Of a stretch of 64,000 bases of DNA, positions 1,440 through 61,457 are shown one piece after another. This stretch comes from Ignavibacteria bacterium (GTDB lineage: Bacteria; Bacteroidota; Ignavibacteria; Tepidaquicellales; Tepidaquicellaceae): the NCBI GenBank assembly GCA_019187405.1, contig JABAQZ010000016.1:62001-126000 (forward strand). The letters are read 5' to 3'. Within the stretch, counting starts at the first letter, position 1, and each line of letters begins with the position of its first letter. Under the pieces are notes generated by a model. That model was not told the origin of the DNA and did not search any database. It worked only from the letters and a program-made list of their open reading frames with translations. The translations under genes were made by a program, and so were the position numbers.

Positions 1440-4070
1440 TTAAGGCGTAATCTTGATAACAGAATTTGAGGAATTATTATCTGCAATCAGCATGTCGCTT
1501 CCATCAACAAATAAGTCGCCGTTAAGGTCTGTAAGTACATAACCAATAGCTGCATTTGATGCATCATTGTCTATCCCGCTTAAATCAGAAGCATCGATTA
1601 CTCCATCCTGATTTATATCGCCGCTATAAATACAATACCTAACTCCTTTTAATTTCATGTTATTTCCAAAAGCCTGTGTGCTGTCCGTAGTAAAATCAAA
1701 ATTTGTATTCATACCGAATGTAAAACTTTCTCCTCCGCTTTTGCTCCATGTTTCCAAACAGTTTCTGTGCCTGAATACAATATAATAATTTCCGGCAGCA
1801 GTATTAAAATAATTATTCAGAGAAATCATTGTGCCGGAATCAAGAATACCCTTTGCTGAATCGGTAAATGCATAAGGGCTCGCCGATTGCCTTAAATAAA
1901 TGCTGACGGTATCTCTCAGATTCAGCATATCTGCAGATTCATTATACAATCCCTCTGGAGCTGCTTTCAGATTAAGAGTTGTAGCAACTTTGCTTTCGAG
2001 CAAATTAAATGAAGTCAGCTTTATGTCATCGATGTACCAACCATCAGCTACAACTCCTACATCAGCTTTCAAGGTAAATCTGATTTTCATCTGTGATGAT
2101 GCATTTGCAAATGAAGTAATGTCGAGAGACTGCTGAGTCCATGTGCTGAGTGTGCCGTCATAAAAAATAACTTTCTGCCACGAAGTCCCGTTGTTGCTCG
2201 ATACTTCCACATTGCAATAATCATATCCTGATTCTGTAGCATATCTGTGCCAGAAATTTAATTTGACAACAGGTGAAGAAGATATATCAATCGGCATATT
2301 GAGGGTCATGGAATTATTTGCATTGTTTAAATAATTTCCCGACGGACTGTCCGTAAAAGATCTTGTTGGACTATGCGACTGGGACGTTGTTACTGCCCAA
2401 CCCTGATTTGTCGTCCATTTAGAAAATCCGTTTTCGGCGCTGTCTGCAAATATAGTTACCCCGCTGCCTGTAATTATGTATTTCGTTTCTGAAAAAACTT
2501 CCGATGAATCTTCCTGATAAATCTTCAGTGTAAGTGGTATTGCAGAGTTTTGCGGTACTGCATTCGAAATCGTAAATCCGAAAGTAAGACTGTCTTTTGC
2601 AAATGAATTCAAACTTGCAATGTTGTAAAATGTTATCGGAACATTAAGATAATATGAGGAAGAAGTGCAAACGATTTTTACGTTCTGTGCCGTTAGCAAT
2701 CCTTTGTTCATTATTTTTATTTTTAAAGTTCCACTCTCCCCGGCTGTATAAACTGATTTATTCAGGTAAAGCGAATCATTAAATACAAATGCGCCGGCAA
2801 GCATAGAAAAATATTGATCCGGATAAAGCATTTCCTGCGCAAATGGAATTATGTCCGCTTGAGCCGGCCAGAATCCGGTGTTTCCTGTTTCAGGCGTAAC
2901 TGCAATTATCTTATGTCCTGAATGTGCGGAATCATTGTAATAAAAATCATCAGCGCATCCTCTTACATAATATCCCACCGTCTGGTAAGGCGTCCCAGTA
3001 GTGTATTTATTATACTCGGACATGTCTTTGAGATATTCATTGAACTTGTTATTATCCGGAGTAGGCGTCGGGTCCTGCCATGCCCAGGGTTTTATTATGT
3101 AATTACCATAAGTATGCGCTCCCATTACTGCCTGAATGTTTTTGCTTGAAATGAAATTCATTGCTGCCATTGTCTCAGGTTCGGAAAATGGTGAAGTACC
3201 TCTGTATGTATCGCTTGAAGGTGAAGTACTTGAGCCGCCGTTGGAAGAATTCCAGAACTGAAAAATGCCGTAATTCCTGTTAAGATCAATTCCGTAACTG
3301 CTCCCGTTGTTCCTTCTGTTTTTACGCCACATTCCGCCGCCGTTTGGATTTGTAGTTTCATTATAAACATAACCATCAGGATTCAAAACAGGCGTAAAGT
3401 ATAATTCCCTATTCTCTAAAATATACTTTGCCAGCGGATCAGAATTATAATTTTCCAGCAGCCAGTAAATGTAATAAATCAAATGCTCCATGCTTTCCGG
3501 CTCCCTTGCATGAATCAGTGAATGATACCATACTTGCGGTCTTGTATTCGGAGCATCGGGATTTAAGGTTACTTTCACCGCCCAAATTGTCCTGCCCTCA
3601 TTCGAAGTACCAATTGAAAATTTGGAGGAAATGAGTCCGGGATATTCAATTCTCATTGTATCAAGCTTACCTATGACTTCATTGAATTTCAGAAATCCTC
3701 CCATAGAGCCGTATATGGAATGACTCACATTATAAGCATCTTTCGACTCTTTCAGTGCGTTTGCTATTTCATTATTTGTCATTTTGGGAATCCTGCCGTA
3801 ATATTCTTCCCAATCTCCTACAATAATTTCATATCCCGTTCCTGATTTCCTTAATAAATCAATTTCGCTTTCAGACAGCCATGCTTCTGTAAAACCATCT
3901 TTTCTGATTGCATGATCTAAATGCAGATCTGCTTTAGAGAGTCTGTCAAAATCAGCGCTTGTATTTGCATAAATTTTTACGAGAGAATATTTTTCCTTTT
4001 CCTGTAACATTGAATTTGAGCTTATTGCCATAAATAATACAATAAGAGTAAGTAAAGTAAATTTATTCAT
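1440..4070 (-). CDS. Secreted M14 zinc carboxypeptidase with C-terminal dockerin-like module
   Basis: This is a peptidase of the M14 carboxypeptidase family. Counting from the ATG at 4070, the zinc ligands are H187 and E190 (IHARE) and H319 (MGAHTYG). N264-R265 (LNRNYG) is the usual substrate-carboxylate site, and E394 (TPETG) is the catalytic glutamate. A jelly-roll or immune-inhibitor-A-like domain follows (about 545-690), then a C-terminal module with an R-H-R-N-C-L-E motif and two dockerin-like calcium loops (GDINQDGVIDASD; TDLNGDLFVDGSD). There is no T9SS sorting domain. The frame can also start at 4124, overlapping the upstream gene by four bases, but that adds 18 residues before a clean signal peptide (MNKFTLLTLIVLFMAISSNS), so 4070 is preferred. 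Confidence 0.9.
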   Translation of the reverse strand: MNKFTLLTLIVLFMAISSNSMLQEKEKYSLVKIYANTSADFDRLSKADLHLDHAIRKDGFTEAWLSESEIDLLRKSGTGYEIIVGDWEEYYGRIPKMTNNEIANALKESKDAYNVSHSIYGSMGGFLKFNEVIGKLDTMRIEYPGLISSKFSIGTSNEGRTIWAVKVTLNPDAPNTRPQVWYHSLIHAREPESMEHLIYYIYWLLENYNSDPLAKYILENRELYFTPVLNPDGYVYNETTNPNGGGMWRKNRRNNGSSYGIDLNRNYGIFQFWNSSNGGSSTSPSSDTYRGTSPFSEPETMAAMNFISSKNIQAVMGAHTYGNYIIKPWAWQDPTPTPDNNKFNEYLKDMSEYNKYTTGTPYQTVGYYVRGCADDFYYNDSAHSGHKIIAVTPETGNTGFWPAQADIIPFAQEMLYPDQYFSMLAGAFVFNDSLYLNKSVYTAGESGTLKIKIMNKGLLTAQNVKIVCTSSSYYLNVPITFYNIASLNSFAKDSLTFGFTISNAVPQNSAIPLTLKIYQEDSSEVFSETKYIITGSGVTIFADSAENGFSKWTTNQGWAVTTSQSHSPTRSFTDSPSGNYLNNANNSMTLNMPIDISSSPVVKLNFWHRYATESGYDYCNVEVSSNNGTSWQKVIFYDGTLSTWTQQSLDITSFANASSQMKIRFTLKADVGVVADGWYIDDIKLTSFNLLESKVATTLNLKAAPEGLYNESADMLNLRDTVSIYLRQSASPYAFTDSAKGILDSGTMISLNNYFNTAAGNYYIVFRHRNCLETWSKSGGESFTFGMNTNFDFTTDSTQAFGNNMKLKGVRYCIYSGDINQDGVIDASDLSGIDNDASNAAIGYVLTDLNGDLFVDGSDMLIADNNSSNSVIKITP

Positions 4071-4120
4071 TGTGAGATATAATTGAGTTAATAAATAATT
4101 TTTGGCAAATATTTTAATTG

Positions 4121-6712
4121 TCATTTGATTAATATCATTCGTTTTGTTTCAATAATATTCCCTGCTTTTAGTTTGTAAAAATAAATTCCGCTTGGCAGTT
4201 TTCCTGCGGCGGATGAAGCGCTGAATTCTACTTCATAATATCCCGGCTTCTTATTTTCATTTACAAGTGTTAAGATTTCATTTCCTAATACATCATACAC
4301 TTTAAGACTCACAAAACTCGATCTTCCTTCGGCGTCTTTTAACTCATAGCTGATTTTCGTAACAGGATTGAAAGGATTCGGATAATTCTGATACAGTATG
4401 AATCCCTTTTCTACTCCAATTGTATTGTTTACTACCTGCACAAGAGGAATTTTAATTTTATATGCGCTTCTGCCGTGAGTCCATACTACGAGAGTTCTGC
4501 TCGGCTGATGAAATGTCAGATCGTGACAGGGTACATTTGATGGAATTCCCATGCTTAAAATATTCCAGTTTGACCCGAGATTTTCAGTTACCATGACATT
4601 TACGTCGGTCGCTATGTAAAGTACATTAGTATTAGCCGGATCGATGATAATATCATTTACCGGCGCATCAGGAAGATTACCTCTGATCGAGAACCATGTC
4701 GCTCCGTAGTTGGAAGTCCTGAAAATATGTGAGCCCGTCGAATCAACTTTATATCCTGATAAAGTTACATAACATACATTTGCAGAGTCAGGATGTATTG
4801 CAACTCTTGTTACCCATCTGTATGGCAAACCAGAATTTATCTTAGTCCAGTTTGTTCCGCCATTTGTGGTTACCCAAACATTGGCATCATCGGTTCCGCA
4901 GTAAACTACATTCGGATTACTTTTTGAAACATCAACAGTAGTAATGGTACCAAGATTACCTCTGTGTCCGTTTGCAAGATCCGGACTTATCGGCGTCCAT
5001 GACTGCATACCGTTTGTGGTTTTGTGTATTTTGTAAGTCCCGCAATAAAGTACCAATGGATTATTTTTATCCATCACATAAGGAGTCATCCAGTTTGTAT
5101 AATTTAAATCAAGTCCGGAAGTTGCACCGGAAAAACTGCTGCCTCCGTTAATTGATCTCACAAGACCTCCGTTTTGAGACGATGCATATACTCTCTGAGA
5201 ATTTGTATAATCCACGAGACAATAAAATCCATCACCGCCATAAACTGAAAACCAGCCTCCAACCGACCCCGTTGTTTTATTTGTTCCGTTATCCTGCGCT
5301 CCACCCATTAATACTGATGGATTGCTGAAATCAATATCGCCTGCATAAAATTGCGTAATGGGAAGAGAATTGCTGTAAAGCCATGTTGAACCTCCGTTTG
5401 TCGAATAATCAATTCCACCGTCATTCCCGACTGCAATGTAGTTTGAGTTTGAAGGAGCAAATGCAACTGCATGATGATCAACATGCGATTCTGCAATAGT
5501 TGAAAATCCGGTTCCGCCGTTCGTTGAAAGATACATATTCAGTCCTCCGCAAAATAGTTTTTCCGCATTGGAAGGATCAGCTTTGCAAATTCTGTTGAAC
5601 CATGCATAATTCGAAGACGGTGCAGCTGATGCATTTATTAGAGTCCAGCTGCCGCCCCAATTCGTTGATTTATACAATCCTCTTGAATTTCCGTTAGCCG
5701 CTGCAGTCAGCGCATAGATTATCTGTGAATTGGCTTTTGAAATGTCGAGTGAAATTCTTCCAAGTGTTGCATCGTTAACAGGGAATCCGCCTCCTAACTG
5801 AGTCCAGTTTTCACCGCTGTTTGTGGAAACAAACAATCCCGAATACTGTCCGCCGTATTTTATGTAATCTTCCCTTCTCAATCTTTCCCACATTGCTCCA
5901 TAAATCCTGCTCCCATTATTCGGATCAACCAATACATCTATTGCAGATACAGAATCTGAAATGAATAATTTTCTCTGCCATGTTTGCCCGGCATCTGAAG
6001 ATTTATAAATTCCTCTTTGCGGATTTTTTCTTCTTGTCCAGCCGCCTGCTGCGACATACACTTCATTCGAATTAAACGGATTAATTGAAATGTTCCCTAT
6101 CGTGAATGAACTGTCAAGTCCTGACAAAGACCAGCTCTCTCCCCCGTCAGTGGATTTGTAAATCCCGGTACCCGGATAATAACTTCGCAGCGAGTTTGCT
6201 TCTCCGGTTCCGCAGTATATAACCAGTGGATTTTGCGGATCGATGGCAAGCGCTCCTATTGATGATGTATTTTGATTGTCAAAAACACTTACCCAGCTTT
6301 GACAAAAGTTTGTTGATTTCCAAAGCCCGCCGTTTGCAGTTCCGGTGTAAATTATCTGCGGATTAACAGGATGTATTGCAAGACAGGTAACTCTTCCTTC
6401 AATGTTTGTCGGACCAACAAGCGTCCAACCCGCCGGATAATCCATTTCATAAAATGACATTTCATTTTTAACATAGTCAATCGAACTCAGATATTCTTCA
6501 TGCGGGATTTCATCAAAAGGAAAAGCTCTCTGTCTGGCAAACCAGTCATCTGCAGGAATGACTCCTTTTCTATATTCTGAAATACTGATGTAATTGCTTT
6601 CATTAATATCATTTTTTTGAAAGACTATAAATATAGCAGCAGATGTAATAACTAAAATGATTAATACAAAAAATCTTAACGGCAAAAAGATTTGCCTGCT
6701 CCCTATAAACAT
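4121..6712 (-). CDS. Asp-box (sortilin/VPS10-like) beta-propeller exoprotein with T9SS type-A sorting domain
   Basis: This 863-residue protein has an N-terminal hydrophobic signal or anchor (about residues 10-30). About eleven Asp-box-like repeats follow (KSTDGGESW, KSSDAGQTW, VSTNSGENW, KSTNWGGSW, YSTNGGSTW, VTTNGGTNW and others), each after an 'IDP.NP..IYCGT'-type strand, as in the VPS10/YCF48-like propellers. The last ~85 residues are a T9SS type-A sorting domain: YQNYPNPFNPVTKISYEL, then LKVYDVLGNE, ending in YKLKAGNIIETKRMILIK. It should therefore be exported by Sec, then through the outer membrane by T9SS. The stop overlaps an alternative start of the downstream carboxypeptidase, so the two are probably co-transcribed. 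Ligand and function are unknown. Confidence 0.9.
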   Translation of the reverse strand: MFIGSRQIFLPLRFFVLIILVITSAAIFIVFQKNDINESNYISISEYRKGVIPADDWFARQRAFPFDEIPHEEYLSSIDYVKNEMSFYEMDYPAGWTLVGPTNIEGRVTCLAIHPVNPQIIYTGTANGGLWKSTNFCQSWVSVFDNQNTSSIGALAIDPQNPLVIYCGTGEANSLRSYYPGTGIYKSTDGGESWSLSGLDSSFTIGNISINPFNSNEVYVAAGGWTRRKNPQRGIYKSSDAGQTWQRKLFISDSVSAIDVLVDPNNGSRIYGAMWERLRREDYIKYGGQYSGLFVSTNSGENWTQLGGGFPVNDATLGRISLDISKANSQIIYALTAAANGNSRGLYKSTNWGGSWTLINASAAPSSNYAWFNRICKADPSNAEKLFCGGLNMYLSTNGGTGFSTIAESHVDHHAVAFAPSNSNYIAVGNDGGIDYSTNGGSTWLYSNSLPITQFYAGDIDFSNPSVLMGGAQDNGTNKTTGSVGGWFSVYGGDGFYCLVDYTNSQRVYASSQNGGLVRSINGGSSFSGATSGLDLNYTNWMTPYVMDKNNPLVLYCGTYKIHKTTNGMQSWTPISPDLANGHRGNLGTITTVDVSKSNPNVVYCGTDDANVWVTTNGGTNWTKINSGLPYRWVTRVAIHPDSANVCYVTLSGYKVDSTGSHIFRTSNYGATWFSIRGNLPDAPVNDIIIDPANTNVLYIATDVNVMVTENLGSNWNILSMGIPSNVPCHDLTFHQPSRTLVVWTHGRSAYKIKIPLVQVVNNTIGVEKGFILYQNYPNPFNPVTKISYELKDAEGRSSFVSLKVYDVLGNEILTLVNENKKPGYYEVEFSASSAAGKLPSGIYFYKLKAGNIIETKRMILIK

Positions 6713-26084: not shown

Positions 26085-29000
26085 TTATGGATAATTTGGA
26101 ACCCTGGAGAATTTTCCTAAATTAGGTGACACTATATTATAATCCGATGCAGTTACAATACCAGATAAATTCAAATCGCCGTAATTATAATTTGACATTC
26201 CTAAATTTGCAGTAACAAAATTATAATCGGCAGCTGTAATAAGAAACGACCTCGTTGCATCACCTCCAAACATACCAAAACCTCCTCCGGATAATGCTGC
26301 TGCTTCACTTCCAAAATACTGGGTCAATGATAGCGAGAAATCATACAGCGGAGTAATCGAATTAAGTAATTGCGCTGAAGCAGTCATCACCGGCAAATGA
26401 TTTCTATGACCGATGACGATGAAATAATTTCCATTTGGAACTGTCGGGAATTTTACGGGATCAGTTCCATTGAGATCTACGATCTGTCCGTCATTTTTTA
26501 TAAATGCGGCTCTTCTGCCGTCAGGGACAGGACCGCCGTTTGAAGTAGATCTTAATTCAATATATACCCAATCTACAACGTTTGCAGGTATCGAAATAAC
26601 AGTCTCAGTGCCGCTGTAATTAAAAGGAGCAGTATTATAAGGTTGTGTAAGCGGAATTAATCCAAAATTGTTAAGATTTATTCTCATATTACCACCTCCG
26701 GAATATGCACCTTCTAGATACATCTTGGCATTTACAATTGTTCCGCTAATGCAGTCAACTCCGCCCGATGAAAAGTCTCCGAATTCCGAAATATTATTTG
26801 CTTTGAAATAATTTGAAGGGACATCAACAGGTGTGTATGAATTCCATGTCGAACCATCATATCTTGCACCTACGAGATTTGACTCTGTGCCTTCGACATC
26901 TCCTGCAAGATAATCGTATCTTGTGTCAGCATTAAAAGGAGCAGTGTTATTTTCTCTTACAACCCAGTATCTTTTCAAGAAATCAACCGCACATGTATTT
27001 GCCGGGTGCTTCGATGCGACAACCTTCGACGTTACATTTGCACCTGCACTCAGACTCCAGCTTTTAAACATAACTGAATTCGGCGAATATCCTGCGTTGC
27101 CAATCGGAAAGCTGAAATAAGTTGGCGAGGATAAACTAAGATTTCTTCTGAATACTCCGCTTCCATTTGTCGCAACATAACTCGATGCAGGAAAAGGATT
27201 AAATACTGTTGCTTCAGGTTCGATAGTTAAATCAAAATTTCCAGCTCCAATGTTACCGTTTTGAAGAAACAGCAAATTGTAAATTAAAAGATTATCTTCA
27301 AGAGTAATTCCGGATCCTCTGTTAATCCTTAGATTACTCAAACCGTTTTGTACAGTAGTCAAGCCTGTCGATGGATTTGAACCGCTAAAATACATATCCG
27401 ACCTGTTACCACCTTCAATAATACCTCCGGGAACAATTGCACCTGAAATCATAAGCGTGTTTTCGTTTCCAATAATTATTCTGTTTGGAGTACAATTTCC
27501 GGTAACTTCAAAGTCGCTTCCCATTGTGAGCGTAGCTGATGAGATGGAAAGATTTTCAAATGATGTCAGACTTCCTGGATATAAAAAACCAGAACCCGGA
27601 CTGATAAGTTTAAGATTCTTATCAATAACTGTAGTACCTGAAATAGTACCAAACGGGACATTCCAGATTGTCCCTCCATTAGTCGTTCCGGCAATAGCTG
27701 CATTCAGATTTGGAAAACTTACATTTGCTTGATTAATAATCGAATGTGCCATTATGCTCGAATAGTGTATGAAGTTAAGAGAAGTTCTGACGAGATCAGT
27801 AGAAATTGCAAAATTAAATGCGAATCCTATTTGAGGAACAAATCCGTCTAAAGTTGCAGGATTGCTCATGGTAACAGTATTCGGTGAAATATTAGTAACC
27901 GTTGTACCCGGCGGAATACCCGGACCTTGAATTCCCATGCCAATAAAAATTCCATCTGTTGAAGGCATGAACGAGATAATATTGTTTCCTGAAACAAGCA
28001 GACCTCCTGAAATTACCGTTGTATCGGGAACATCTCCGTTTTTCCATTTATTGTTGCTAGCGTTTATTGTACCGCCTTGATCAGTATAATTAACGAGACC
28101 GTAAATCCCGTAAGTGCTCAAATCACACTTGTCAACAGTCATATCATTTACCTGTCGGTTAAATGCGATGTTTGTATCACAGTTGTGGAAAGTCATTCCT
28201 CTGATTACAACATTATTCAAAGCTGCGGGGGGATCGATAAGATCATTTCTTGCCTGAACCCAGACACCGCTGCCTGCAGTTTCTCTGAATATTCTTGAAT
28301 CAAGTATCTGAATATTTGAATAATCAAGTCTTGCAAACAAGTTAATATCAATTCCGATCCTTACATTTCCTGTGGGCATTACTACTGATAAGTTTTTAAA
28401 AACAGAATTTCTTAGTTTTTCAAAATATATTGTATGCCCTTGTATTTTATTTGTCGGGTTATTATTCATAAAAGCGCAATGTGAAATTTCCACATTTTCA
28501 ATCATCCCTGGAGAAACATTTCTTTGGAAAGCCACTATACCAAAATAACCGTTGTCATTTACGGTTGAATTTCTCATTATAAATCCGTTTAAGCTGGCAA
28601 AGGAAGGGAAATGAATTCCTGAATAAAAACTTCCGTTAAAATTACATGATTCCAAAAACAGATCAAACAGATTTTCGGCATTTACTCTTAGTCCGCTTAA
28701 GCCTGCCGAAGAAGTAGCTGTAGCAAATACATTTTCCATTGTTACATAACTGCTTCTCATATCAATAGCGTCACCAGTTGTAACAGAGACTCTGAGATTT
28801 CTAAGAACCATTCTGTTTGTAGGACTTCCACCCGGAGCTCTCAAAGAAACTACGGAATTAAAGATAGTACTCGAAGACGAGCTTGATCCTTTCCAGAAAC
28901 CGATTATATTCAGTCTTTTTGTTAACATAAATCCTGGATAAGAACCTACTGCAACGATAATGTTATCCCCGTCAGTAACGTCGGGATTGTCTATTGCATT

Positions 29001-29159
29001 CTGAACGGAAAGCCATGGAGTTTCAATGTTTTTTGCCTGAGAGGAACTGCGGGAATTACTGCCGGTTGCTGCATTAACATAATATGTTGCAGCAATCAAA
29101 TTACCCTCAAAAGCCAGAAAAATTAAAAAACAAATCAATACATTGTAAAATTTTTTCAT
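26085..29159 (-). CDS. Right-handed beta-helix exoprotein with C-terminal dockerin-like module
   Basis: This is a 1024-residue secreted protein. After the signal peptide comes the DUF1565/PbH1-type opening ATYYVNAATGSNSRSSSQAK and a beta-helix region (about 30-420) with repeated 'NSTVNDNGYFGI' and 'NNVVIRGMTFHNC' rungs. A second all-beta region follows (about 480-790). The C-terminus carries the 'HRN' module (FIVIGHRNHLPVMT, then YDFSLSLTQYFG) and two dockerin-like loops (GDATRSFLITAADYN; GDLNLSGIVTASDYN). No T9SS domain is present, in contrast to the co-transcribed downstream gene. Function is unknown; binding or cutting a polysaccharide is typical of the fold. Confidence 0.86.
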   Translation of the reverse strand: MKKFYNVLICFLIFLAFEGNLIAATYYVNAATGSNSRSSSQAKNIETPWLSVQNAIDNPDVTDGDNIIVAVGSYPGFMLTKRLNIIGFWKGSSSSSSTIFNSVVSLRAPGGSPTNRMVLRNLRVSVTTGDAIDMRSSYVTMENVFATATSSAGLSGLRVNAENLFDLFLESCNFNGSFYSGIHFPSFASLNGFIMRNSTVNDNGYFGIVAFQRNVSPGMIENVEISHCAFMNNNPTNKIQGHTIYFEKLRNSVFKNLSVVMPTGNVRIGIDINLFARLDYSNIQILDSRIFRETAGSGVWVQARNDLIDPPAALNNVVIRGMTFHNCDTNIAFNRQVNDMTVDKCDLSTYGIYGLVNYTDQGGTINASNNKWKNGDVPDTTVISGGLLVSGNNIISFMPSTDGIFIGMGIQGPGIPPGTTVTNISPNTVTMSNPATLDGFVPQIGFAFNFAISTDLVRTSLNFIHYSSIMAHSIINQANVSFPNLNAAIAGTTNGGTIWNVPFGTISGTTVIDKNLKLISPGSGFLYPGSLTSFENLSISSATLTMGSDFEVTGNCTPNRIIIGNENTLMISGAIVPGGIIEGGNRSDMYFSGSNPSTGLTTVQNGLSNLRINRGSGITLEDNLLIYNLLFLQNGNIGAGNFDLTIEPEATVFNPFPASSYVATNGSGVFRRNLSLSSPTYFSFPIGNAGYSPNSVMFKSWSLSAGANVTSKVVASKHPANTCAVDFLKRYWVVRENNTAPFNADTRYDYLAGDVEGTESNLVGARYDGSTWNSYTPVDVPSNYFKANNISEFGDFSSGGVDCISGTIVNAKMYLEGAYSGGGNMRINLNNFGLIPLTQPYNTAPFNYSGTETVISIPANVVDWVYIELRSTSNGGPVPDGRRAAFIKNDGQIVDLNGTDPVKFPTVPNGNYFIVIGHRNHLPVMTASAQLLNSITPLYDFSLSLTQYFGSEAAALSGGGFGMFGGDATRSFLITAADYNFVTANLGMSNYNYGDLNLSGIVTASDYNIVSPNLGKFSRVPNYP

Positions 29160-50123: not shown

Positions 50124-52055
50124 TCATGGAATAACCGCATTAATAAAATTTGCCGCGTTGTTTTCGGCTAAAGCCGCATCATAAGCTTCCACAATTTCAT
50201 CTCCGTTTAAATCTGTAGAAAGATATCCCGTAATGAATGAACCCGCATCATTGTCAATTAAGTTAGCGTCAGTGCCGTCAATGACTCTGTCAGAATTAAC
50301 ATCACCGCTGTATAGACACCACCTTCCTGATTTGAAAATCATATTATCACCGTAAGCTTTTGACTGAGAATCGGTAAAATCAAATGAGGCAGTATTGTCT
50401 GCCGAAACAGAAACCGGAACAGAGCTCCAAGTTTCAAGCGCATTTCTATGTAAAAGCTGTATGTAATAATTTCCATTCAATGAAAATGTAAACTGCATTA
50501 CAGCAGAGCCGGTAGAATCCAAAACAACTATTGCGGAATCCGCTTTATTATAAGGAGAAAAATTTTCTCTCAAAAAAATTCTTAATGAATCATTGACATG
50601 ATAATTTCCGTTCCACATTCCTTCAAGAGAAACATAAAGATGCAGTGCTGGCGATGAAATAAATCTGACAAAAAAGCCGTAACTGTTTTGATTCTGATTA
50701 TTGCTGCTGTTGCCTGTAACACGCATCAGATATTTCCCTGATTCTTTAACTGCCATTACACTGTCAGAAGTACCGGAAAAATTTTTTGATTGTATCAAGC
50801 TTCCCGATTCTGAAAGAAGAGCAATCGTGCTAACTCCTGCATTCGATGAATTAACTTTAAAAATAATTTCGCCTGCTAATCCGGTTTCCGTTTTGTAAAA
50901 ATCAGTGTCCGAAACAACGGTATTTGATTTAAGAGTAATGAATCCAGAATAGTTTTTCCCCGCAAAAATTTCATAAGCAAAATCCTTTTTATCGGGTTCA
51001 TCCAATCCTCGAATAAGTGAACGAGTATCGCTTGTCTGCTGTATATGATTTTTATTTGTTCTTATTGTATCAGCCACTCCAAGCGGCGCAGGGTTTTGAT
51101 TTATGTATAACCTTTGATTATTAAATGGTACTGCAAGATCAGTTCCAAGACCAAGATAATTTGAAGTAATCCATGTATAAAAAATATTACCCGGAAGAGC
51201 AAATTCAGGATTATCATTAGAGAGTGTATCAATGCCGGCAATTGTATCGGTTTGGATTCCGTTACAGTTTACATCCTGATTATAATAATTCGACGGAACA
51301 TTAGTTTCAATATTTCCAAACAAATAAGCTCCGTATTGCGAGGATGAAAAAGTAATTTTCATGTCGCGCATGGCTTCACTGTTATTATCAATCGAAACGA
51401 AAGGAATTGATGTTACGTTGGTTCCGAGATGAGGAGTCCCGGTAGTAATTACCTTTGCAACTTTATGACCATTAACAGTATCATAAGGATCAATCCACCA
51501 CTTATGAATGCCGTTTTCTTTTCTCTGAAGATATTCTCTGATTGCAAGACCTCCCATCGAATGTCCAAGCAAGATAACTTTTTTTGCTCCTGTAATTTTC
51601 AAAACGGAATCTATCATGATTTTCAAAGCAAATCCCTGCTTATAAATTGCAGACTGATTGCTCGGGGACTGACTGCTGCCCGGAGTTGAATTATTATAAA
51701 GTAAGATTCTCGGATCAGCTGGATTTCTGTTCCAAAAATTACCAAAATTAATCGCATAGATATCGGACTTTGACATAAGATTGACATTATTCCCGGAAAC
51801 ATCCTTCAAAGGGAATAATACGTCCGGAAGATACTGAGTTGTATCTCCGCCTCTTGCATTGATTACAAAATGCAATACATTCGAATCACTCACACTCCAT
51901 GTACCGGCAAGCTGAGAAATAACAGTATTCCAGGTTGTGTTATCCGAATTAAGACCGTGAACGAATATAACGGGATAAGGAGAATTTGAAGATTGTGATA
52001 TTGCAAGGTTCACCTCAAATAAAAAAAACAATGTTAGAATGATTTTGATTTTCAC
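50124..52055 (-). CDS. Secreted alpha/beta-hydrolase (lipase-like) with dockerin-like C-terminal module
   Basis: This 643-residue protein has a signal peptide (IILTLFFLFEVNLAISQ). An alpha/beta-hydrolase domain (about 25-330) starts with the oxyanion motif YPVIFVHGLNSDNTTWN and has the nucleophile elbow LLGHSMGGLAIREYL (Ser near 165), as in PGAP1-like and triacylglycerol lipases. An all-beta region follows, then the same C-terminal module as in the M14 carboxypeptidase: YYIQLLHRNALETWS, SKAYGDNMIFKSGRWCLYSGD and two dockerin-like loops (GDVNSDRVIDGTD; TDLNGDEIVEAYD). No T9SS domain is present. It probably hydrolyses esters outside the cell. Confidence 0.88.
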   Translation of the reverse strand: MKIKIILTLFFLFEVNLAISQSSNSPYPVIFVHGLNSDNTTWNTVISQLAGTWSVSDSNVLHFVINARGGDTTQYLPDVLFPLKDVSGNNVNLMSKSDIYAINFGNFWNRNPADPRILLYNNSTPGSSQSPSNQSAIYKQGFALKIMIDSVLKITGAKKVILLGHSMGGLAIREYLQRKENGIHKWWIDPYDTVNGHKVAKVITTGTPHLGTNVTSIPFVSIDNNSEAMRDMKITFSSSQYGAYLFGNIETNVPSNYYNQDVNCNGIQTDTIAGIDTLSNDNPEFALPGNIFYTWITSNYLGLGTDLAVPFNNQRLYINQNPAPLGVADTIRTNKNHIQQTSDTRSLIRGLDEPDKKDFAYEIFAGKNYSGFITLKSNTVVSDTDFYKTETGLAGEIIFKVNSSNAGVSTIALLSESGSLIQSKNFSGTSDSVMAVKESGKYLMRVTGNSSNNQNQNSYGFFVRFISSPALHLYVSLEGMWNGNYHVNDSLRIFLRENFSPYNKADSAIVVLDSTGSAVMQFTFSLNGNYYIQLLHRNALETWSSVPVSVSADNTASFDFTDSQSKAYGDNMIFKSGRWCLYSGDVNSDRVIDGTDANLIDNDAGSFITGYLSTDLNGDEIVEAYDAALAENNAANFINAVIP

Positions 52056-59921: not shown

Positions 59922-61457
59922 ATGAAATTTAAAGGAAATCTTCTCTTAATGTTTACCGTATTTTTTGCGGCAGCATTTTTTTATTCAGAAGTATTTTCAC
60001 AAGCATATCCCGGATATACTTTGTACACTGCATCTTCAACAAGAACTAATTTGATTGACCTGAACAATAGCGTCGTTAAATACTGGACTCATACACGAAG
60101 CGGAGGTTACTCGGTATATCTTTTACCGAACGGTGATTTGATGAGACCTGCGCTTTCAACAGGCTCGACTATTAACGGAGGAGGAGCATCCGGAATCGTG
60201 CAGAAATATTCATGGAGCGGATCACTTTTATGGGAATATACTCACAGCAGCAGTACATACAGGACTCATCACGATATTTGTCCGATGCCTAATGGTAATG
60301 TCTTACTTATTGCATGGGAAGCAAAAACTGCAGCTCAGGCAGTTGCCGCAGGACTTAATCACAGCGCTGTAATCTGGCCTGATAAAATTATTGAAGTGCA
60401 GCCGTCTGGGACAACAGGCGGAACCATAGTTTGGGAATGGCACTTCTGGGATCATCTCATTCAGGATTATGATCCGACAAAAGCAAACTACGGAGTTGTA
60501 GCAGATCATCCAGAACTGCTTGACATTAATGTTGGCAGCGCTGGCTCCGGAGATTGGATGCATTGCAATGGTATAAGTTACAATGAGGAGTTGGATCAGA
60601 TTGTAATTTCTTCACACGAACTGGATGAGATATATGTAATTGATCACAGTACTACGACTGCAGAGGCTGCAGGTCATACCGGTGGAATATATGGAAAGGG
60701 AGGAGATTTTCTTTACAGATGGGGCAGACCATCAAATTACCGTGCTGCAGGTTCGCAAATATTTAATGTAGTTCACTGCAGTATTTGGATTCCTGACACC
60801 TTGCCCGGCGGAGGACATATTATGGCATTCAATAACAGGGAAGGAACTTCTTCTTCGATGGTAGTCGAAATTATTCCTCCGACTGACAGCGCCGGATTTT
60901 ATTCACACACACCGGGAACTGCATTCGGTCCCGCTGATCCTGTATGGAGCTACAGCGCTACCGGTTTTTACTCAAATCATCTTGGGGGAAACCAGAGACT
61001 TCCAAACGGAAACACAATAATATCAGAATCTACGAGCGGTAATTTGTTTGAAGTAACTTCTTCCGGAAACATTGTATGGAATTATTCACCCGGCGGAGAA
61101 ATAGTCAGAGTATTAAGATATGGTTTTGACTATCCCGGTCTTGTTGGTATATCAAACTCCGTTTCTTCTATACCCGGAGATTATGAATTGTCACAAAACT
61201 TTCCAAATCCATTTAATCCGGTTACGACAATTTACTATTCATTGCCAAAATCTGCAAGAGTTACGATGAAAGTGTATGACATTCTCGGAAATGAAGTGAG
61301 GACACTTTTAAATGACGAACAAACAAGTTCCGGGCGAAACAATGTAGTATGGGACAGTAAGAACAATTCGGGTATGACGGTTGCTTCCGGAGTTTACTTC
61401 TATAAAATTGTTACAGATGAATTTTCAAAAACCATGAAGATGATTTTGGCAAAATAA
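59922..61457 (+). CDS. Arylsulfotransferase-family exoprotein with T9SS sorting domain
   Basis: This 511-residue protein has a signal peptide (LLLMFTVFFAAAFFYSEVFSQ). The body (about 30-420) is a six-bladed-propeller-like aryl-sulfate sulfotransferase (ASST): THHDICPMPNGNVLLIAWEA, DWMHCNGISYNEELDQ, ILDEIYVIDHSTT-like (HELDEIYVIDHSTTTAEA), RWGRPSNYRA and HLGGNQRLPNGNTIISES. ASST enzymes move sulfate between aryl esters in the periplasm. The T9SS domain (LSQNFPNPFNPVTTIYYSL, ending SKTMKMILAK) would place it at the surface. It is the last gene of the run starting at the sigma factor, closed by a strong terminator. Confidence 0.9.
   Translation: MKFKGNLLLMFTVFFAAAFFYSEVFSQAYPGYTLYTASSTRTNLIDLNNSVVKYWTHTRSGGYSVYLLPNGDLMRPALSTGSTINGGGASGIVQKYSWSGSLLWEYTHSSSTYRTHHDICPMPNGNVLLIAWEAKTAAQAVAAGLNHSAVIWPDKIIEVQPSGTTGGTIVWEWHFWDHLIQDYDPTKANYGVVADHPELLDINVGSAGSGDWMHCNGISYNEELDQIVISSHELDEIYVIDHSTTTAEAAGHTGGIYGKGGDFLYRWGRPSNYRAAGSQIFNVVHCSIWIPDTLPGGGHIMAFNNREGTSSSMVVEIIPPTDSAGFYSHTPGTAFGPADPVWSYSATGFYSNHLGGNQRLPNGNTIISESTSGNLFEVTSSGNIVWNYSPGGEIVRVLRYGFDYPGLVGISNSVSSIPGDYELSQNFPNPFNPVTTIYYSLPKSARVTMKVYDILGNEVRTLLNDEQTSSGRNNVVWDSKNNSGMTVASGVYFYKIVTDEFSKTMKMILAK

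Follow-up and report, generated by a model that had tools for sequence, protein, structure and literature searches.

The window, meaning the whole stretch of 64,000 nucleotides that was analyzed from an Ignavibacteria bacterium, encodes three proteins that end in the same C-terminal module. Their genes are all encoded on the minus strand, and the tail of the M14 carboxypeptidase at 1443-1976 is therefore read from right to left. The features on which the analysis rests are as follows.

1440..4124, minus strand: M14 zinc carboxypeptidase with a signal peptide, a MAM-like domain and the module at its end (open reading frame; PF00246, E 5e-64)
1443..1976, minus strand: C-terminal module of the M14 protein, subfamily HRNxxETWS (profile match, C7:63443-63976; AlphaFold model)
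1761..1769, minus strand: HRN motif of the M14 module, module residues 70-72 (H70, R71 and N72 near-invariant)
1584..1619, minus strand: first dockerin-like Ca loop of the M14 module, DINQDGVIDASD, module residues 120-131 (column conservation)
1494..1529, minus strand: second dockerin-like Ca loop of the M14 module, DLNGDLFVDGSD, module residues 150-161 (column conservation)
26085..29159, minus strand: beta-helix-like exported protein with the module at its end, divergent subfamily VVDW..HRNHL (no Pfam match)
26088..26585, minus strand: C-terminal module of the beta-helix protein, last residues ..FSRVPNYP (profile match)
50124..52055, minus strand: lipase-like alpha/beta hydrolase with the module at its end (open reading frame and domain scan)
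50127..50645, minus strand: C-terminal module of the lipase (profile match, E 3e-87)
59922..61457, plus strand: arylsulfotransferase-like protein with a type A C-terminal domain (CTD) at its end (paralogs C32:1649 and C32:3543 bear the module instead; PF05935 on a module-bearing paralog)

The original prediction had described a common tail on the M14 peptidase, the beta-helix protein and the lipase, and all three copies were recovered, with pairwise identities of 43% between the M14 and lipase tails and 27% between the beta-helix and M14 tails. The beta-helix protein represents a second subfamily (VVDW...HRNHLxxMS), in which HRNHLPVMT stands in place of HRNxxETWS, and its Ca loops are degenerate, with several acidic positions missing. 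The ten neighbors that had been said to end in an N-P-F-N-P domain were also found when the proteins of the window were read by eye (4121, 7101, 10022, 15636, 24953, 48270, 54992, 57037, 58285 and 59922). A weak internal match to TIGR04183 was seen at residues 398-451 of the lipase (18.5 bits against a cut-off of 23), well before its C-terminus; it may be vestigial or simply reflect an Ig-like domain.

To extend the census, a profile of the three tails was searched against the 3.78-Mb genome and returned 101 places, with a best E value of 8e-90. After two matches in one open frame were merged, and a broken copy at C1:238022 and a 21-residue match were dropped, these correspond to 98 open frames carrying a module of ~175 residues, far more than the three copies in the window. 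Among the 98, the frame at C4:65559 has the dockerin half alone and that at C8:70598 contains a stop. The protein ends 0-8 residues past the module in 86 of the 98 frames, and in 84 of these 86 the terminal residue is proline; the last three residues include ITP (17), IRP (13), ISP (9), IKP (6), VTP (6) and VVP (5). Short extensions of 24-98 residues lie beyond the module in 9 frames, and a type A CTD follows it in only 3 (C26:9755, C17:25892 and C26:37070), so that an internal position of the module occurs as well. The predicted exclusion of the T9SS domain was accordingly found as a near-exclusion, and proteins do not commonly carry both tails. With at least 150 type A CTDs in the genome (150 of 256 candidates were scored, and at least the window proteins 4121 and 57037 are absent from the scored set), an overlap of ~25 would be expected by chance against the 3 seen, a figure that assumes, as a guess, 600 exported proteins in all and serves for orientation only. 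A hydrophobic stretch within the first 80 residues was present in 97 of the 98 module proteins by a permissive test, and a lipobox in the signal peptide of only 1, which speaks against lipoprotein anchoring. The median length is 796 residues for module proteins versus 557 for CTD proteins, and one module protein reaches 3991 residues.

Alignment of 96 modules shows an N-terminal part with the elements EGFYN, DT, SPY, YYI..HRNS.ETWS, YDFT and AYGNN, followed by two 12-residue loops, GDVNQDGVIDGxD and TDLNGDxIVDGSD, and an end of the form DNNAxNFVxxIxP. Positions 1 and 12 of the loops are Asp in 94-96 of the 96, and dockerin-type loop patterns are found in 89 and 93 of them. Domain searches were carried out with 91 members. 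Of the modules that span 440 bases or more, 96 in number, five divergent or broken ones were set aside, and the beta-helix tail of the window is one of these five. Pfam Dockerin_1 (PF00404) matches 68 of the 91 (best E 7.7e-9), in the second half of the module only, and the PDB dockerins 2vn5/2vn6 match the same half by sequence profile (E 6e-4 to 2e-3); no model that spans the module in full came from Pfam or NCBIfam. Judged by these matches, the second half is a real relative of dockerin I. An AlphaFold2 model of the M14 module had a mean pLDDT of 81.8, with the beta part at ~95 and a weak second half. In Foldseek the best row for the whole model was the X-module-dockerin chain 4wi0_B (E 0.07, probability 0.75), with transthyretin-like folds next. 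VIA-align gave a transthyretin-like carboxypeptidase D domain at Z 6.7 (rmsd 2.7, 77 aligned), a lytic transglycosylase tied for top at Z 6.7 and the X-dockerin 4u3s_B at Z 5.7 (rmsd 6.9, 110 aligned); no row reached Z 8, below which a match may be a mere common arrangement, so that the fold match is not safe. The listed rows included no type A CTD structure, an absence that carries no weight. The dockerin half modeled alone had a pLDDT of 64.8, and its best structure matches were dockerins at weak E values of 1.2-1.3.

To compare the cargo of the two kinds of tail, the tails were cut off and the ectodomains were compared inside the genome, the CTD set comprising 149 of the 150 scored places (one 105-residue fragment was omitted). 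A relative among the CTD ectodomains was found for 49 of 95 module ectodomains at E<=1e-8. At E<=1e-15 and at least 70% coverage of both partners, 100 pairs remained, involving 23 module proteins, one of which (C26:9755) itself bears both tails, and 43 CTD proteins. Of the 33 families with at least two members, 11 are mixed, 11 contain only module proteins and 11 only CTD proteins. The M14 protein of the window is 49.9% identical over residues 25-721 to C1:131969, which ends in a type A CTD, and the CTD-bearing arylsulfotransferase-like protein at 59922-61457 is 85 and 68% identical to the module-bearing C32:1649 and C32:3543, respectively; further swap pairs are C3:72594 with C5:166022 (59%) and C17:41187 with C17:57329 (57%). 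In the seven pairs inspected, homology ends near the start of the module on one side and near that of the N-P-F-N-P linker on the other. Pfam scans of ten module ectodomains identified arylsulfotransferases, M1 and M12B-type peptidases, sortilin/BNR propellers and SBBP propellers, with no match for 3 of the 10. C32:1649 and C32:3543 are two arylsulfotransferase-like genes that lie near each other on C32 and both carry the module. As far as sequence goes, tail swapping is the strongest evidence that the module may be an equivalent of the CTD.

The known type IX signals are C-terminal, carry the instruction for secretion and for destination and fall into several families, A, B and C (PMC12618676; PMC10202324). 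The module resembles the type A CTD (TIGR04183/PF18962) in its C-terminal position, in sitting on Sec-exported proteins and in sharing ectodomain families with it in the same genome, but it is about twice as long, has a dockerin-like half and ends in ..xP instead of N-P-F-N-P...K. None of the 91 members matched TIGR04183 at E<=0.1, and one matched PF18962 at E 0.061. Similar in length is the type B CTD (TIGR04131/PF13585), a domain of 150-235 residues that is independent of PorV and has its own shuttles (PMC12618676) and that is thought to stay uncleaved (PMC10202324); the module differs in its pair of Ca loops, none being described for type B in the consulted passages of these two papers, and among the 91 members there was no match to TIGR04131 and one to PF13585, at E 0.062. 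The type C CTD (ChiA type), treated in section 14 of PMC10202324 as a third family of which the C-terminal ~100 residues are needed for secretion, is also a C-terminal signal but shorter than the module. None of the CTD-type NCBIfam models matched the 91 members, in a library that may not contain a type C model. With the dockerin type I/X-module-dockerin dyad the module shares a duplicated 12-residue Ca loop, conserved acidic positions and a beta domain in front; unlike the dyad, it has a conserved terminal peptide, replaces the T9SS CTD, goes with no cohesin over the cut-off and shows only a weak fold match (Z 5.7). On sequence, then, the module fits the description of a CTD in position, cargo and size, exchanges with type A and matches no known model. 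Searches of mainly open-access literature, in which the motif could not be queried as text, gave no description of it among the records listed.

The genome encodes SprA, and PorV and PorU are found side by side. Six more PorV-family proteins score over the cut-off (7 in total) and one below it, and there are four more PorU-like proteins. Across a phylum sample of 296 genomes, SprA was found in 42 of 42 module-bearing genomes versus 228 of 296 overall (hypergeometric p 7e-6). By genus, SprA is present in 135 of 140 genera and in 37 of 37 module genera (p 0.21), so that the association is weak and not independent, and genus-level co-occurrence of the module with the T9SS has no power. In one family whose listed sampled members lack SprA, the module was absent from all 86 genomes. 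A PorV paralog specific to the module was also considered and rejected: among 100 genomes of the class, PorV-family genes number 3-19 per genome and do not track the number of modules, with 8, 8 and 6 in the module-rich G000, G336 and G351 and 10 in the module-poor G343. By coordinates, no module gene adjoins a PorV-family or PorU-like gene in the genome under study; from both results, no dedicated shuttle could be identified. The four PorU-like proteins, of 1623-1646 residues (C8:106848-116512, C2:42855-47627 and C16:46098-50870; L307-L309), occur besides the bona fide PorU that adjoins PorV and are possibly specialized sortases or secreted C25 peptidases.

The module was also found in other genomes. 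Seventy-five loci in named genomes came from MAGs labeled Ignavibacteria, Ignavibacteriae, Ignavibacteriales or Bacteroidetes (SZAS-88/89), of which 73 and 70 entered two further sets (A4 and A6), each with two window tails added. The protein ends 0-4 residues past the module in 69 of the 75, proline is terminal in 67 of 74 closed frames, and none of the 75 has a type A CTD. Among the 100 genomes of the class, only the genome under study (G000) and two of its own family (G336 and G351) had at least 35 scored copies, from 122-143 candidates each; these are lower bounds, as at most 35 candidates were scored per genome. Eight of the other 97 had one or two modules and 89 had none at E<=1e-20. All 40 modules from 14 other genomes are C-terminal, with 0-54 residues after them and no CTD following, and 24 of the 40 are proline-terminal by eye. 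A profile of the second subfamily matched 42 of the 296 genomes of the phylum sample; of 30 loci from this sample, one is broken and the 29 readable ones, which include the window's own, all lie near the terminus without a CTD, 23 of them with a proline within the last five residues (by eye). Because the modules of low-copy relatives are C-terminal too, the idea of an internal domain exposed by CTD loss in this lineage alone was rejected. The beta-helix tail had no tblastn match in a plasmid collection. Similar tails presumably occur in many cultured Bacteroidota.

Cohesins (PF00963) were searched for in the genome under study and in 29 genomes of the family. None was found over the Pfam cut-off in the genome under study and none at E<=0.01 in G000, G336 or G351, the module-rich genomes. 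Matches were present in 5 of 29 genomes of the family, 2 of them over the cut-off, all in other members than these three. The relatives G377 and G382 encode cohesin-like domains over the Pfam cut-off.

The replacement of the CTD by the module on closely related proteins suggests that the module is probably another address label for the cell surface. The explanation that is modestly favored, from the sequence evidence, is that the module would be a self-standing C-terminal targeting or anchoring signal, standing in for the type A CTD on roughly a hundred exported proteins and probably read by the T9SS. The alternative anchor or sorting signal that the original prediction had offered is well supported by the terminal position (86 of 98), the near-exclusion of the CTD (3 of 98) and the swaps (11 of 33 families mixed). 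The protein would pass Sec by its signal peptide, as its hydrophobic N-terminus suggests, and the terminal module would then be recognized by an export and anchoring machinery of the envelope, most likely the same T9SS translocon. The body that is recognized may consist of the beta domain and the Ca-stabilized dockerin-like pair, with the free C-terminus (..IxP or ..xVP) as part of the recognized face, and the module may stay on the protein and double as a surface anchor, by analogy with type B CTDs. Its role may be secretion, anchoring or both. The chief finding that speaks against a pure secretion signal is the existence of three proteins with both tails; these would fit a role in anchoring or a stage midway through tail exchange.

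The dockerin-like half lends itself to a different reading, in which a receptor, cohesin-like or other, captures the module at the outer membrane or on a scaffold, with export by another route or before docking. X-module-dockerin dyads bind receptors on scaffolds in cellulosomes, and the Dockerin_1 and 2vn5/2vn6 matches, the rows for 4wi0_B and 4u3s_B and the three proteins with both module and CTD all agree with such a dock; a scheme of C-terminal dockerins with a CTD-anchored scaffoldin has been proposed for Cloacimonadota (PMC8542988). This reading is nevertheless considered unlikely, because module-rich genomes gave no cohesins, because the cohesin matches sit in other family members and because it leaves the loss of the CTD unexplained. 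The earlier suggestion of a dockerin for a cohesin-like partner thus held for the dockerin half and failed for the partner: the cohesins that were to be looked for did not appear over the cut-off in module-rich genomes, and a cohesin partner as a simple explanation was rejected, although very divergent cohesins could escape the search.

Two further readings are harder to reconcile with the cargo and the position of the module. Similar proteins deprived of the one domain that is proven to direct secretion would by default stay in the periplasm, so the module could mark proteins of the periplasm or of the inner face of the outer membrane, and a CTD-to-module swap would then be a switch from outside to inside. 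Metallopeptidases, beta-propellers, arylsulfotransferases and a protein of 3991 residues would be an unusual periplasmic load, and module proteins are the longer at the median, which makes this reading improbable. Little credence is likewise given to the view of the module as a common mobile domain that binds Ca in an accessory or adhesive capacity, added at C-termini by chance and without a targeting role: mobile domains are often of the beta-sandwich or dockerin kind, and a few copies lie internally or have extensions after them, but the strict terminal position, the last residues conserved over the phylum-wide sample and the replacement, not supplementation, of the CTD argue against it.

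Going beyond the targeting or anchoring signal favored above, it is tentatively proposed that the module may represent a fourth class of type IX signal that extends across the phylum, composed of a transthyretin-like HRN domain, a Ca-binding dockerin-like pair and a free xP C-terminus, which would act both as an export signal and as a non-cleaved surface anchor and would have expanded in two genera of the family to between dozens and roughly a hundred proteins in each genome, replacing the type A CTD by whole-tail exchange. Exported proteins of Bacteroidota are predicted mainly with models of type A and B CTDs, which would overlook proteins ending in the module, as many as 98 of them in one genome. 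Section 14 of PMC10202324 lists two questions as open, namely how different signals are read by the T9SS and whether a signal determines where its protein ends up, and the swaps within a single genome provide natural matched pairs on which both could be tested.

Some copies of the module have degenerated. That at C1:238022-238222 contains three stop codons and that at C8:70598 one internal TAA, and module genes thus decay as well as spread. Extensions after the module in different genomes (C3:182112 in the genome under study; L120, L128 and L141) have a common motif like xIDxEIYExxK, which suggests that one protein family has acquired a conserved peptide behind the module.
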